IMG/VR virus record: IMGVR_UViG_3300027870_000007
Span: 1 to 35,649 of that record
Source: a virus
Length of the DNA stretch: 35,649 nucleotides
Reading direction: 5' to 3' (one strand)
Shown piece after piece: positions 17,059 to 34,930 of the stretch. The position numbers and the translations under genes were made by a program. The notes below the pieces were generated by a model. That model ran no database searches. It was not told the origin of the DNA and saw only the letters and a program-made list of their open reading frames with translations. Each line of letters starts with the position of its first letter. Within the stretch, counting starts at the first letter, position 1.

Positions 17059-17934
17059 TCATTTCAACTTAATAGCCAGATTCGCCAAGAAATCCAGCAC
17101 TTCTTTATCTTCTATTTCCGAGAATAAATCTTTGCAATCTTTTATTTGCATAGGGCTATACATATGACGCTCAAGTGTATCAATTAGATCCTTCCCATGC
17201 ACCTTTCTTTCTAGAACAGTGGCTTCCAGCTGCTCCGTAAATGCTACCAAGCGGGCGCGTCCAACCTTATTAATGGGGTCAGCGATTGCGTCGAAAAGTG
17301 CGAGAATATAGGCATTATATTTTTTATAATTATCACCCGCATAAATATTATCTGGATCTTGAAGTGCAAATCCGTGACCAACAACCTCTCCATAAGCAGT
17401 AGAACTGTCAAAATCGCCCTTCACGTGCGCGTAACTGTCTCCGAGTGCATGAACAAGAAAACCTGTTTCCCAGTCCGGCCGCGCTTGGTGGTATGACTCA
17501 TGTATTAATCCCTGAAGAGCTGCTCGTCGCTTAACTACTGCAGCATGATTTCCACCATGGAGTGAGTGGAGAGCGTTGACAATGTGCGACCGCTTTTTCC
17601 AATCAAAAACACCAAATATGGAAACCGGTATCGCGTTGTACTTCGCTATTTCATCTGGCGCTTGGGAAAAACACCCGATTCGGTCCGCGCGAGCAGCGCG
17701 AACATCCGCAGCCTCCAAAACAAAATTAGTAGTGTAAAAATGCCCATCTATTTTAAACCTCTTGATATCAATGGCTAAGACAACTTGACCTATTGATATC
17801 AGCCTTTCAACGATTTCATCAGAAAGCGTATTTCCCGGATTTGGCGAAGTGAAAGTTGATTTAGTGTGCGCACAGCCTTGAAGAAGGATTGCAAATAAAC
17901 AAACAACCGCAATTTTCCAACTGGCAATTTTCAT
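17059..17934 (-). CDS. phage-borne lipoprotein with zinc-hydrolase-like HxLGDxxAH motif
   Basis: A 291-residue product with a lipoprotein signal: a basic N-terminus, a hydrophobic segment at residues 8-18 and the lipobox LLQG before Cys21. Residues 160-171 (LVHALGDSYAHV) match the H-x-L-G-D-x-x-A-H pattern of zinc-dependent phospholipase C-like and related alpha-helical families. Further His residues occur at 123-130 (LHSLHGGNH) and 145-149 (HESYH). The gene is clearly AT-richer than its neighbours and has its own promoter, so it is probably a lysogenic-conversion gene. The enzyme activity is inference; an inactive relative is possible. Confidence 0.7.
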   Translation of the reverse strand: MKIASWKIAVVCLFAILLQGCAHTKSTFTSPNPGNTLSDEIVERLISIGQVVLAIDIKRFKIDGHFYTTNFVLEAADVRAARADRIGCFSQAPDEIAKYNAIPVSIFGVFDWKKRSHIVNALHSLHGGNHAAVVKRRAALQGLIHESYHQARPDWETGFLVHALGDSYAHVKGDFDSSTAYGEVVGHGFALQDPDNIYAGDNYKKYNAYILALFDAIADPINKVGRARLVAFTEQLEATVLERKVHGKDLIDTLERHMYSPMQIKDCKDLFSEIEDKEVLDFLANLAIKLK

Positions 17935-20682: not shown

Positions 20683-20987
20683 ACGGCACCGCCCTTCTCG
20701 CGCGGGAAGCGCAGCTTGCCCACCACGTTGCGCTCCAGATGGCCCAGGCGCACCAAGGTGCGGATGTGCCAGTCCGCGCTGGAGATCGCGAGGCTGAAGC
20801 GCTCTGCGACACAGTGCACCGGCGGGAGCTGGTCGTTCTGGCCCAGGAACGTGCGCATGTACTCCAGCACCTGCAGCTGCAGGTCGGAGGCGACAGGCGC
20901 CTTCTGGCGCCGGGGCGCAGCGGGCGCGGGCTGGCTGGCATGGCGCAGTCGCGCCGCGATATCGTTGGCTTCGTGCATGTAGCTCAC
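20679..20987 (-). CDS. small winged-helix protein
   Basis: A 102-residue product from the GTG at 20987, which overlaps the upstream stop as GTGA and has AAGGTGG before it; an internal ATG three codons on is possible. The N-terminal third is Ala/Arg/Pro-rich (HASQPAPAAPRRQKAPVAS). Residues 35-95 form a winged-helix fold (LQLQVLEYMRTFLGQNDQLP, SLAISSADWHIRTLVRLGHL, then a GKLRFPRE wing). It may be a transcription or replication accessory protein; the DNA-binding fold is well supported, the role is not. Confidence 0.65.
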   Translation of the reverse strand: MSYMHEANDIAARLRHASQPAPAAPRRQKAPVASDLQLQVLEYMRTFLGQNDQLPPVHCVAERFSLAISSADWHIRTLVRLGHLERNVVGKLRFPREKGGAV

Positions 20988-21793
20988 CGGGCACCACCTT
21001 TCACTTGCGCGGCCAGTCGCTGGTCGACCTGCTCCTGGGCCTGGCGCTTGCGCTCCGCAAAGTCTTGACGCTGCGTTTCGGCGTGGCGCGAGCGCGCTTC
21101 CGATGCCACCTGTGTGCGCGAAGCCAAGTCGGCCCGCAGTTCGGCCAGTCGCCCGCGCAATGCGGGGCTTGCACCTCGTGTGGGCTCGGCGCGGCCCGCC
21201 AGCAGGGCAACTGGGTTGATGGCCGGCTGGGCTGCAGTCTCAGGAGGCGGCAGAGCCTGGCGGAAAGTAGCCGCGAGTGCCGGCGAGAGCGTGCCGCGTT
21301 TCTCTGCCTGCTCGAGCGCTTGGTGACGACCCTCCGTGTCCCAGCCCATCGACACCCGGATGTTCACGGGCAGCCGCTGCTCGCGCGCCGTGCGCATCAG
21401 GCGCTCGTAGGCGGCCAGGAATGCCATCCGCGCGCCCACCATGTCGCAGGCGGCGGCCAGCGGCTGAGCCACGGCCCAAGCCTCTTCCATCTCGGCCGTC
21501 CACACCACCGTCGCGCGCTCGTCCAGCGCCTGCGAGGCCAGAGCCCACGCCTCATTGCCAGCGGGGCGGCCCAGCACTTCGTCAATGCGGTCCAGGATCA
21601 CCTTTGGCGTGAGCCGGCCGGAATGCTCGCTGCGCACACGGTGCATGGCGGCGGCGAGCGTCGCGCGGTCGAAGCTCGAAAGGTCTTCGGCCAGCAGCGC
21701 AGCGGCGCCGGGCTTGATCTCCTGGCCCAGCAGTTCCGCCGTGGCCACGATCTGGCGGACCAACCACTGCAGGTCTTCGTCGTTCATCGGCAT
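20984..21793 (-). CDS. replication-associated protein, P-like position
   Basis: A 269-residue product from the ATG at 21793 (MPMNDEDLQWLVRQIVATAE); a GGGAG lies about 10 bases ahead. The N-terminal half resembles phage proteins that follow the O-like initiator (LLAEDLSSFDRATLAAAMHR, GRLTPKVILDRIDE), a pattern seen in replication loaders and related phage P proteins. The C-terminal 70 residues are a charged Arg/Gln/Glu helix (ERKRQAQEQVDQRLAAQV) with coiled-coil propensity. The role as helicase loader is inferred from position beside the origin-bearing gene. Confidence 0.6.
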   Translation of the reverse strand: MPMNDEDLQWLVRQIVATAELLGQEIKPGAAALLAEDLSSFDRATLAAAMHRVRSEHSGRLTPKVILDRIDEVLGRPAGNEAWALASQALDERATVVWTAEMEEAWAVAQPLAAACDMVGARMAFLAAYERLMRTAREQRLPVNIRVSMGWDTEGRHQALEQAEKRGTLSPALAATFRQALPPPETAAQPAINPVALLAGRAEPTRGASPALRGRLAELRADLASRTQVASEARSRHAETQRQDFAERKRQAQEQVDQRLAAQVKGGAR

Positions 21794-21798
21794 ATCGA

Positions 21799-22698
21799 TC
21801 AATCTCCCTTGCCCGCGCGGCGGGCGCGCAGGATGTCCATCGCCTCGTCTGCAGCGCTGGCGTTCGTCTGGGTCTGGTCCACCTGGTGCGCCTTCGTGGT
21901 GGTCATCGCGGAGCCGGTGGCCCACTGCGTGCGATAGCCCTCAGCACCGGTGAGCAGCAGCCCCACGCCGTGGCAGTTGCGCACCACGTACGAGTCGTGG
22001 ACGAATTCCACAAACCAGCCCGCGACGCCCGGAGCCTCGTCGTAGCCGATGCGCTGCACGAACTGCTTGACCTTCGTGTTCACCTGGGCGTTGCGCACCG
22101 GCTTGGCGCGGTACCGGGTCTCGTAGGCAGCGGAGTAGGCGGCCCAGGTCGCCCGGCAGGCGGCCTGCAGTTCGGTCTCTTCGCGGTCAGCAGCACCACC
22201 CTCCCCCGCGGCGGCCGGCAGCGCCGGGCGCAATGGTTCATTGACGGTTCTATGACGGTTCAACTGATGATTTGGGTGCGCCATTTGCACCTCTGGAGGT
22301 GCGCCATCTGCACCCCCTGGTGCGCCTTCTGCGGGGGGTGGTGCGCCATCTGCACCCGGTGCGCCGTCTGCGGGGGGTGCGCCATCTGCACCCCTACCTT
22401 TCGTCGCACGTGAGCGCGCGGCTGGGGCCTTCGACGGGTCATAGCGCGACGGCGTGATCTTGTAGCTGGTGCTCGTGTTGGCGCGGTATTCGCGGTAGAC
22501 GATGCCGACGGCCTGGAGCCAGGCCAATGCATCCTGCACGGCGCGCTCGGACAGGCAGGTGCGCAGCGCGATCGACTTCACTGCCGGCCAGCACACGCCA
22601 TCGTCGCTCGCCTGGTCGGCCAGCGAGATCAGCACCGCCTTCTGCGACGCACTCATGCCCTGCAGGGGCCAGCATGCGGCCATGATCATGGTGCTCAT
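21799..22698 (-). CDS. O-like replication initiator containing the candidate origin
   Basis: A 299-residue product from the ATG at 22698, overlapping the upstream stop as ATGA. Residues 15-80 form a winged helix-turn-helix (SQKAVLISLADQASDDGVCW, LRTCLSERAVQDALAWLQAV, then IVYREYRANTSTSYKITPSR). Residues 95-145 are a low-complexity GADGAPP-type linker encoded by iterons. The C-terminal half (TWAAYSAAYETRYRAKPVRN and onward) is a helical domain common in phage replication proteins. As in lambda O, the initiator gene carries the likely origin in its own linker. It is followed by the P-like gene. Confidence 0.75.
   Translation of the reverse strand: MSTMIMAACWPLQGMSASQKAVLISLADQASDDGVCWPAVKSIALRTCLSERAVQDALAWLQAVGIVYREYRANTSTSYKITPSRYDPSKAPAARSRATKGRGADGAPPADGAPGADGAPPPAEGAPGGADGAPPEVQMAHPNHQLNRHRTVNEPLRPALPAAAGEGGAADREETELQAACRATWAAYSAAYETRYRAKPVRNAQVNTKVKQFVQRIGYDEAPGVAGWFVEFVHDSYVVRNCHGVGLLLTGAEGYRTQWATGSAMTTTKAHQVDQTQTNASAADEAMDILRARRAGKGD
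22231..22392. other. candidate replication origin: six iterons plus AT-rich flank
   Basis: Six copies of a 17-base repeat, consensus GGTGCGCCATCTGCACC, start at 22275, 22298, 22319, 22340, 22358 and 22376 (spacings 23, 21, 21, 18, 18). Four copies end in GCACC, which pairs with GGTGC in the same copy; copies 3 and 5 end in GCGGG. The left side (22231-22274) is AT-rich for this genome and holds TGACGGTTC twice (22242-22250 and 22253-22261). Copy 1 is in a different reading frame from the others, so the repeats are preserved as DNA, not as protein. Confidence 0.7.
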
Positions 22699-23135: not shown

Positions 23136-23393
23136 CTATGCTGCCTCCTTGCGCGCATAGGCCTCGACCAGTTCCGGCCAGATGAGGTGCCAGTCATCGG
23201 GACGCAGGTCGCGACGCGTGACACTGCCGTCAGTAGCACGTTCAATCGCGACGCAGTGAGTCGGGCCTGGTCGCCGCTTGGCATAGCCGTGTTGCCACTG
23301 CCGTATTTGGGCGTCGCTTGGGATGCCTGCGCGAATGCGAAGCTCACCGACAGTGAGCGCACCTGGGCTCGCTAAGTATTCGGACAATTTCAT
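23136..23393 (-). CDS. Cro/YdaS-like helix-turn-helix repressor
   Basis: An 85-residue product from the ATG at 23393 (MKLSEYLASPGALTVGELRI). Residues 1-40 fit the YdaS/Cro-type helix-turn-helix of phage switches (GALTVGELRIRAGIPSDAQI, then RQWQHGYAKRRPGP). The C-terminal half (DLRPDDWHLIWPELVEAY) matches the tail of YdaS-type proteins. It faces the S24 repressor across a 76-base intergenic region with three operator-like palindromes. A TATAGA -10 lies only 11-16 bases upstream and no ribosome binding site is seen, so the message may be nearly leaderless. Confidence 0.8.
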   Translation of the reverse strand: MKLSEYLASPGALTVGELRIRAGIPSDAQIRQWQHGYAKRRPGPTHCVAIERATDGSVTRRDLRPDDWHLIWPELVEAYARKEAA

Positions 23394-23403
23394 GCGACCC
23401 GAA

Positions 23404-23430
23404 TCTATAGCATTTGCTACCGACAATCAA
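23404..23430 (-). promoter_or_regulatory. leftward early promoter of the cro-like gene
   Basis: Minus strand: TTGATT (23430-23425), a 15-base spacer, then TATAGA (23409-23404). The spacer is shorter than ideal. The promoter is covered by the first operator palindrome (23408-23419), so repressor binding would block it directly. Confidence 0.5.
23408..23419. promoter_or_regulatory. operator site 1, TAGCATTTGCTA
   Basis: Palindrome with arms TAGCA and TGCTA around TT. It overlaps the -10 of the leftward early promoter. It matches the two perfect sites at 25570 and 25595 in the outer four bases on each side. Confidence 0.75.
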
Positions 23431-25610: not shown

Positions 25611-25981
25611 CACCCATCGCACCAACAAACGCAACACGAACCGGCTCAGACGCACACAGGGCCACACCGACCGGAGACGCGAGGGGTTCTAGGCCTGAGG
25701 GCTGCAGCGAGTTGGAGGCGATGGGCTCAAAGCGGATCGGCGCGGGGCCTCATGGCTCCTTCACAACGTAGCTGCCGATGTTGCTTGCCCCACCTGCGGG
25801 GTATTCGTCCGGCGAAATAGCACCTTCGGGCACGGGCCGAAGCTATGCGCGGTGTCTCGACCGTGCCCAGTCCGCCAAAGCGCGGTACACGGCAAAAGGG
25901 GTGAGGGGTAGACGCCCGAGAACAGAAACGGTCACGCCGGTTGGAATGCCGGCATGCCCTTCGCAAGGGGGGCGAATCCTG
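25611..25981 (+). other. long leader of the Com operon, no credible gene
   Basis: About 370 bases between the promoter and the first possible start. Open frames here lack ribosome binding sites and have poor composition. Several small hairpins are visible (for example GCCCC-acct-GCGGGG near 25787, and the CCCTT/AAGGG hairpin just before 25973). I see no tRNA or known riboswitch. It may be an untranslated regulatory leader. Confidence 0.5.
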
Positions 25982-33727: not shown

Positions 33728-34930
33728 ATGTTTCAAAACCTCATCATCTACCGCATCGCCGCAGGCTGGCAGTCCGAACTGCAGGCCGTCGAGGAGGCCC
33801 TGGCCAAGGCGCCTTTCATGGAGTGCGGCACCACGCAGGAGAAGTCCCTGGGCTGGGTGCCACCGCGCGGCGAGGCTCACGGCCCCCTGGCCGAATCCGT
33901 CGCCGGCCAGTGGATCCTGCGCTTCATGGTCGAGTCCAAGACGTTGCCCGCCAGCGCACTGGCCCGCAAGGTGAAGGAGAAGGCCGACCGCATCGAGAAG
34001 GAAACGGGCCGCAAGCCTGGGCGCAAGGAGACCAAGGAGCTCAAGGACGAGGCCAAGCTCGACCTGCTGCCCATGGCGTTCACTAAACAGGGCTCCATGT
34101 GGGTGTGGATCGACACAGCGTCGCGCCTGCTGGTGCTCGATACGTCCAGCCAGGGCCGCGCGGACGAGGTGGTCACGCTGCTGGTCGAGTCGCTGCCGGG
34201 CCTGTCGGTGTCGCTGATCAACACCCAGACTAGCCCGCAGGCCGCAATGGCCCACTGGCTCAAAGAGCAAGAACCGCCCACAGGCTTCACGGTGGACCGG
34301 GAATGCGAACTGAAGAGCGCCTGCGAGGAGAAGTCCCGGGTGGTCTACGGCCGGCATCCGCTGGACATCGAAGAGGTGCAGGCCCACATCGACGCCGGCA
34401 AGCTGCCCACCAAGCTTGCGCTGACCTGGGATGACCGGGTGTCGTTCCTGCTGACCGAAAGCCTGCAGGTCAAGAAGCTCGCGTTCCTGGACACGGTGCT
34501 CGAAGGAACGAAGGCCGACGAGGGCGGCTTTGACACCGATGTCGCGATCGCGACGGGAGAGCTGGTCAAGTTGATTCCGGACCTGATCGCAGCGCTAGGT
34601 GGCGAGGAGCGCCAGAACTTTGGTGAGGCATTCGCGGATGCAGTCGCGGCCGAATTCAAGCGAACTCTTCCCAGCGGCATTGATCGTGTGGAGATTCGGG
34701 CAGAGGGCACCACCGTTGTAGTGGCGCGGCCCATAGGGGACGAGCCCGATCCTCTATATGACCAAGCGGTCGACGCGGTGCGCAAGCACAACCGAGCCAG
34801 CATTTCCCTTGTGCAACGGATTCTCCGCATTGGCTACAACCGCGCCGCTCGGCTGTTGGAGGACATGGAGAAGGCCGGTATCGTCAGCAAGATGGCCGGC
34901 AACGGAGCACGCGATGTCTTGACGCCGTGA
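33728..34930 (+). CDS. rdgC: RdgC fused to an FtsK-gamma winged helix
   Basis: A 400-residue product from the ATG at 33728. Residues 1-310 are RdgC-like: [10 protein letters not shown] start, GWVPPRGE at 44-51, a basic helix ([20 protein letters not shown]), [20 protein letters not shown] near 122-141, and [13 protein letters not shown] near 195. RdgC forms a ring that coats duplex DNA and limits RecA. Residues 341-400 ([51 protein letters not shown]) are a full FtsK-gamma domain, the module that reads polarity sequences. The two parts are in one frame with no stop or shift. Cellular RdgC is about 300 residues and lacks this end. Confidence 0.85.

Follow-up and report, generated by a model that had tools for sequence, protein, structure and literature searches.

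How a replication initiator tells its own origin from all others is a long-standing question, inherited from phage lambda. The lambda origin is situated in the middle of gene O, between the parts encoding the N- and C-terminal domains, and consists of dyad-symmetric iterons, each bound by a dimer of the O protein, and of an AT-rich tract, about 40 bp long, that comes after them (PMC6022878, PMC5043065, PMC7466680). This layout is that of a proven origin (PMC7466680, PMC5043065), in which the O protein also binds single strands of the AT-rich tract (PMC7466680); among plasmid initiators, TrfA and RepE have a comparable activity, binding one strand of a repeat-bearing AT-rich element (PMC4081077). 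Concerning the plasmid iterons themselves, they are bound by monomers and are mostly direct repeats without dyad symmetry (PMC5043065).

The present locus comes from the IMG/VR virus record IMGVR_UViG_3300027870_000007, the whole stretch of which (35,649 bases; hereafter the window) was analysed and read as a prophage. As described below, it very probably carries an origin of the lambda type, located within the gene of its own O-like initiator. Its nearest known counterpart is the origin of lambda, with which those of the Stx phages are grouped. Its likeness to lambda covers the dyad iterons lying mid-gene between two domains, the 6+5+6 arrangement of the half-sites, the use of three reading frames and the adjoining AT-rich tract downstream of the iterons in the gene. 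The locus differs from lambda in the iteron sequence, in the diverged N-terminal domain of the initiator, in the iteron spacings of 18–23 bp, in the better-kept half-site being the one nearest to the AT-rich tract, in the composition of that tract—an 11-bp AACC array that lambda lacks—and in the neighbouring gene, which is not P.

The initiator and the neighbouring gene

The initiator gene (21799–22698, minus strand) encodes a protein of 299 residues, assigned by profile search to PHROG 391 'replication initiation O-like' (E 3.2e-42) and matching Pfam HTH_36 above the cut-off. The C-terminal half of lambda O (residues 140–292) matches the same PHROG (E 2.7e-39), so that the C-terminal domains of the two initiators are homologous, and the lambda-O-like position proposed in an earlier sequence-only reading of this DNA is borne out. 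The AlphaFold2 model contains a winged-helix DNA-binding domain (residues 17–81; 22456–22650, minus strand; HTH_36 at residues 14–65) with helices at residues 17–29, 40–47 and 51–64 and strands at 67–70 and 78–81 (pLDDT about 76–91), the helix 51–64 being the predicted recognition helix. It is followed by a linker predicted to be disordered (residues 96–168; 22195–22413, minus strand; pLDDT < 50), which is encoded by the iterons together with the AT-rich array, and by a helical C-terminal domain (residues 170–296; 21811–22191, minus strand), for which, by analogy, a partner-binding role is predicted. A sequence search of the PDB with the initiator profile gave nothing useful, and the fold search returned general winged-helix matches only (E > 0.007).

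The next gene (20984–21793, minus strand) encodes a protein of 269 residues belonging to PHROG 6028, a group with unassigned function. It is probably a helicase loader, mainly by its position, the same slot being occupied in the relatives by P-like, DnaC-like or DnaB-like proteins. The protein was modelled confidently as mostly helical (pLDDT 91) and has weak fold matches among viral models to phage replisome organizers and proteins of the G39P type (best E 3.5e-3); profile comparison revealed no profile similarity to lambda P, and neither fold nor sequence gave a match in the PDB.

Iterons within the initiator gene

Six 17-bp iterons, starting at positions 22275, 22298, 22319, 22340, 22358 and 22376 and thus spaced by 23, 21, 21, 18 and 18 bp, span 22275–22392 between the segments encoding the two domains, about 300 bp into the coding sequence. 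Three of them are exact copies of GGTGCGCCATCTGCACC and the copy at 22275 differs from these at one base. On the coding strand the iteron GGTGCAGATGGCGCACC is an imperfect dyad, GGTGCA-N5-CGCACC, each full copy having the 6+5+6 form. In dinucleotide shuffles of the whole window, allowing up to three mismatches, the mean number of iteron matches was 0.53 and five were never reached.

All six copies are located on the minus strand, with the full dyads at 22376–22392 (GGTGCAGATGGCGCACC), 22340–22356 and 22298–22314 each reading GADGAP, the copies with a degenerate left half at 22358–22374 (CCCGCAGACGGCGCACC) and 22319–22335 (CCCGCAGAAGGCGCACC) reading PADGAP and PAEGAP, respectively, and the full dyad at 22275–22291 (GGTGCAAATGGCGCACC) reading VQMAHP (E-VQMAHP) in a shifted frame. 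The claim that five of the six repeats encode Gly-Ala-Asp-Gly-Ala-Pro therefore holds with regard to the frame shared by the five, but not to the exact peptide, two of them being variants. The first copy does lie 23 bases off in another frame, and the third and fifth copies (22319 and 22358) do end in GCGGG, as had been read, i.e. on the coding strand their left half has been lost to CCCGC. It is proposed that the DNA at 22275 could stay constant despite the change of frame since almost any peptide would do in the disordered linker. The lambda iterons, TCCCTC-AAAAC-GAGGGA, when checked directly, proved to be of the 6+5+6 form as well, their frames being 0, 2, 2 and 1, so that iterons in several frames are a property of lambda, too.

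Selection on the DNA of the iterons

Relatives of the initiator were taken from viral contigs and named genomes, a plasmid collection used as a further source having added little. Window-type iterons are also present in Acidovorax, Delftia and Aquabacterium, with spacings of 18, 18, 21, 21 and 23 (22) bp and a frame-shifted copy of the QMAHP type. The homologous initiators of the Pseudomonas aeruginosa phages LESphi3 and MD8 (gene O) share with the window the AACC array and the CCCGC-N7-GCACC class of iterons, which in these phages lie in all three frames, and differ in the spacings (17, 17, 17, 21, 23 and 22 bp) and linker peptides; in MD8, moreover, the neighbouring gene encodes a P-like loader. 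The repeats of nearly all close relatives fit a single core, GCA-N5-[CT]GC-V-CC. A frame-shifted copy is present in every close relative, its peptide being QMAHP or one of its variants, among them QTAHP, QVAHP and QEAHQ.

The repeats could in principle be a matter of the protein, i.e. a Gly/Ala/Pro linker grown by slippage with the DNA similarity as its by-product, and both the five copies sharing one frame and the copy number varying from 5 to 10 among the relatives—a comparison that the sequence-only reading had asked for—would suit such an origin. The frame data refute it, given the frame-shifted copies and given that 95 of the 103 genes with at least three iterons use two or more frames (56 two, 39 all three). 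It is contradicted as well by the codons of the linker alanines, GCA in 10/10 cases compared with 4/45 elsewhere in the initiator gene (Fisher p = 3e-8), and by the synonymous null, in which codons were reshuffled with the protein fixed: the linkers of 88 non-redundant genes hold 355 copies of the core versus 38 under reshuffling, codons being taken as independent, codon usage being pooled and the related genes not amounting to independent counts. The linker peptide, finally, is predicted to be disordered and differs between the relatives, and the protein-level explanation is thus extremely improbable. Selection on the iterons clearly acts on the DNA, and what had formerly been deduced from one frame shift is now backed by the GCA bias, the synonymous control, the three-frame use in relatives and the covariation within the dyad.

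Dyad symmetry and residue 55

Regarding that covariation, the third base of the left half-site is complementary to that of the right one in 122 of the 132 full copies, with three different bases in use, a pattern characteristic of a two-fold site. A plasmid-type iteron origin, the iterons of which lack a dyad, was considered and rejected on the same counts and on the dyads of the full copies in the window. The degenerate left halves, found throughout the family, also follow the specificity base, CC-C occurring with A in 237 copies and CC-G with C in 104. That such copies set the strength of binding, as the sequence-only reading had suggested, seems plausible; graded copies would be reasonable since, of the six iterons in Stx phages, only four show strong binding, while the remaining ones are required as well (PMC7466680).

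The base concerned is related to a single residue of the initiator. Residue 55, the fifth one of the predicted recognition helix, is Gln in the window (codon at 22534–22536, minus strand) and co-varies in the relatives with the half-site base, as judged from counts and from tree and AU tests. Within the close family, Gln is paired with A in 71 genes; where the residue is Arg, the base is C in 32 genes and G in 21. There are two exceptions: L263, having Arg55 together with A-type iterons, and L091, having Val55. It should be noted that Gln–adenine and Arg–guanine contacts are textbook preferences. Three initiators, L257, L089 and L314, have Gln55 and keep CACC, their iterons differing elsewhere (GTCACC, TTCACC); just ahead of residue 50 their helices differ, which possibly marks a second specificity position.

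The tree of all rows, based on the short N-terminal domain, was poorly resolved and was replaced by one built with care from a thinned set of rows, residue 55 being left out. In that tree residue 55 and the half-site base change five times each, the changes matching each other. A single clade is rejected by the AU test for all Arg55 rows (p 3.8e-5) as well as for all Arg/C rows (p 0.0016); if the count is restricted to branches with good support, three independent switches remain, which share one direction and are too few for a sign test to attain 0.05 (p 0.25). The closest switch is found in the window's own clade, separating the Comamonas sequences L050 and L038 (Arg, GCCCC) from the Acidovorax L033 and the window (Gln, GCACC). 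When applied to distant initiators with other iterons, found via the AACC scan described below, the rule failed, the rows being mixed; it is therefore claimed for the close family only.

The covariation between residue and base points to site-specific binding by the encoded initiator; the dyad and the covariation of the half-sites are consistent with the binding of a dimer to each iteron. The dyads might, on the other hand, be read as RNA hairpins acting in the mRNA as attenuators or terminators, for which a 5-bp stem is available in the full copies and the half-sites covary. In most copies, however, the CC-rich left half cannot pair with the right half, which is still kept; covariation with a residue of a protein helix is not expected of an RNA stem, and no Rfam match was found at the iterons. 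The hairpin reading thus has hardly any likelihood left.

The AT-rich flank and the AACC array

The AT-rich flank pointed out previously is real: the 40 bp from position 22232 are the least stable in the initiator gene, 1.5% of the window being less stable. The flank is itself a second multi-frame repeat array, overlooked in the earlier reading, in which three 11-bp repeats, AACCGTCATAG AACCGTCAATG AACCATTGCGC (22228–22260, minus strand), place AACC at 22257–22260, 22246–22249 and 22235–22238, i.e. in steps of 11 bp and each time in a different reading frame. In the relatives the steps are of 11 bp (143), 12 bp (72) and 10 bp (28); chains of at least three AACC at steps of 10–12 bp occur in 123 of 140 genes, compared with about four expected with the protein fixed, and the array persists even where the iterons next to it are of quite another kind. 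When IMG/VR was scanned blind, at the DNA level, for AACCNTCANNNAACCNTCANNNAACC, at least 120 stretches were retrieved; among the matches listed, 58 of the 74 ORFs lying across them match an O-like profile and most of the remaining ones match replication-initiation, primosomal or DnaD-like families. Based on its stability, the AACC counts and the blind scan, the array is probably the unwinding element.

This bears on the possibility that the iterons are operators by which the initiator represses its own operon, with replication starting elsewhere. The residue–base covariation, pointing as it does to site-specific binding, is by itself no proof of an origin function and would fit a repressor, too. 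The sites are nevertheless located mid-gene, some 300 bp from the start of the coding sequence, with the AACC array of low stability coming after them, a layout which in lambda is that of a proven origin (PMC7466680, PMC5043065), and the operator explanation is improbable.

A broader proposition, quite possible if somewhat short of probable, is that the AACC array represents a general element for unwinding or single-strand recognition in phage initiator genes, common to the O-like and DnaD-like ones whatever their iterons, and that the iterons diversify by a residue-55 code (Gln or Arg for A or G:C), leaving each phage with a private origin.

Proposed mechanism and its significance

In the lambda-type origin favoured here, dimers of the 299-residue initiator would use their N-terminal winged helix to bind the six dyad iterons, and the middle base of each GC-V-CC half-site would be read by residue 55 in the recognition helix. 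Once assembled, the complex would melt the 11-bp AACC array next to the iterons, and recruitment of the helicase by the C-terminal domain would go through the product of the next gene. The evidence, drawn from sequence throughout, shows the repeats, their conservation as DNA in several frames, the covariation within the dyad and between residue and base, and the second array; the start of replication at this place, the binding of dimers and the melting are inferred from homology to lambda. The locus also resembles the iteron plasmids (RK2, F, P1) in that repeats bound by a replicon-specific initiator adjoin an AT-rich element which itself bears repeats, but differs from them in that its sites are dyads within a coding sequence.

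While the organisation of such an origin is already known from lambda, the AACC array, the diversification of the half-sites and the link to residue 55 look new as far as the literature was searched: in the papers covered, which include few subscription ones, neither multi-frame iterons nor the AACC array nor a residue–base link were described. The family offers a large natural set of origin–initiator pairs, where a single amino acid allows one base to be predicted for all sites of an array, so that the specificity of an origin could be rewired and tested by a single codon. Evolution appears to have already made such swaps here, which bears on the lambda-era question of own-origin recognition. 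Attention is also drawn to a conserved 11-bp element within genes whose annotation often goes no further than helix-turn-helix protein, and the calling of origins in many prophages becomes possible.

Other features of the window

Upstream of the initiator operon, a YdaS-like repressor-type gene is present at 23136–23426 (minus strand; Pfam YdaS_toxin, E 2e-10), and the Burkholderiales-2 cis-regulatory RNA (RF02917, 87 bits) was found inside the phage at 25774–25848 (minus strand). The most AT-rich stretch of the window, with G+C down to 17.5% over 40 bp, is located at 17293–17353, close to that end of the structural genes where the terminase lies. One ORF of 400 residues at 33728–34930 (plus strand) combines an RdgC domain (E 1e-103) with an FtsK gamma domain (E 7e-25), a fusion that looks unusual for a phage.
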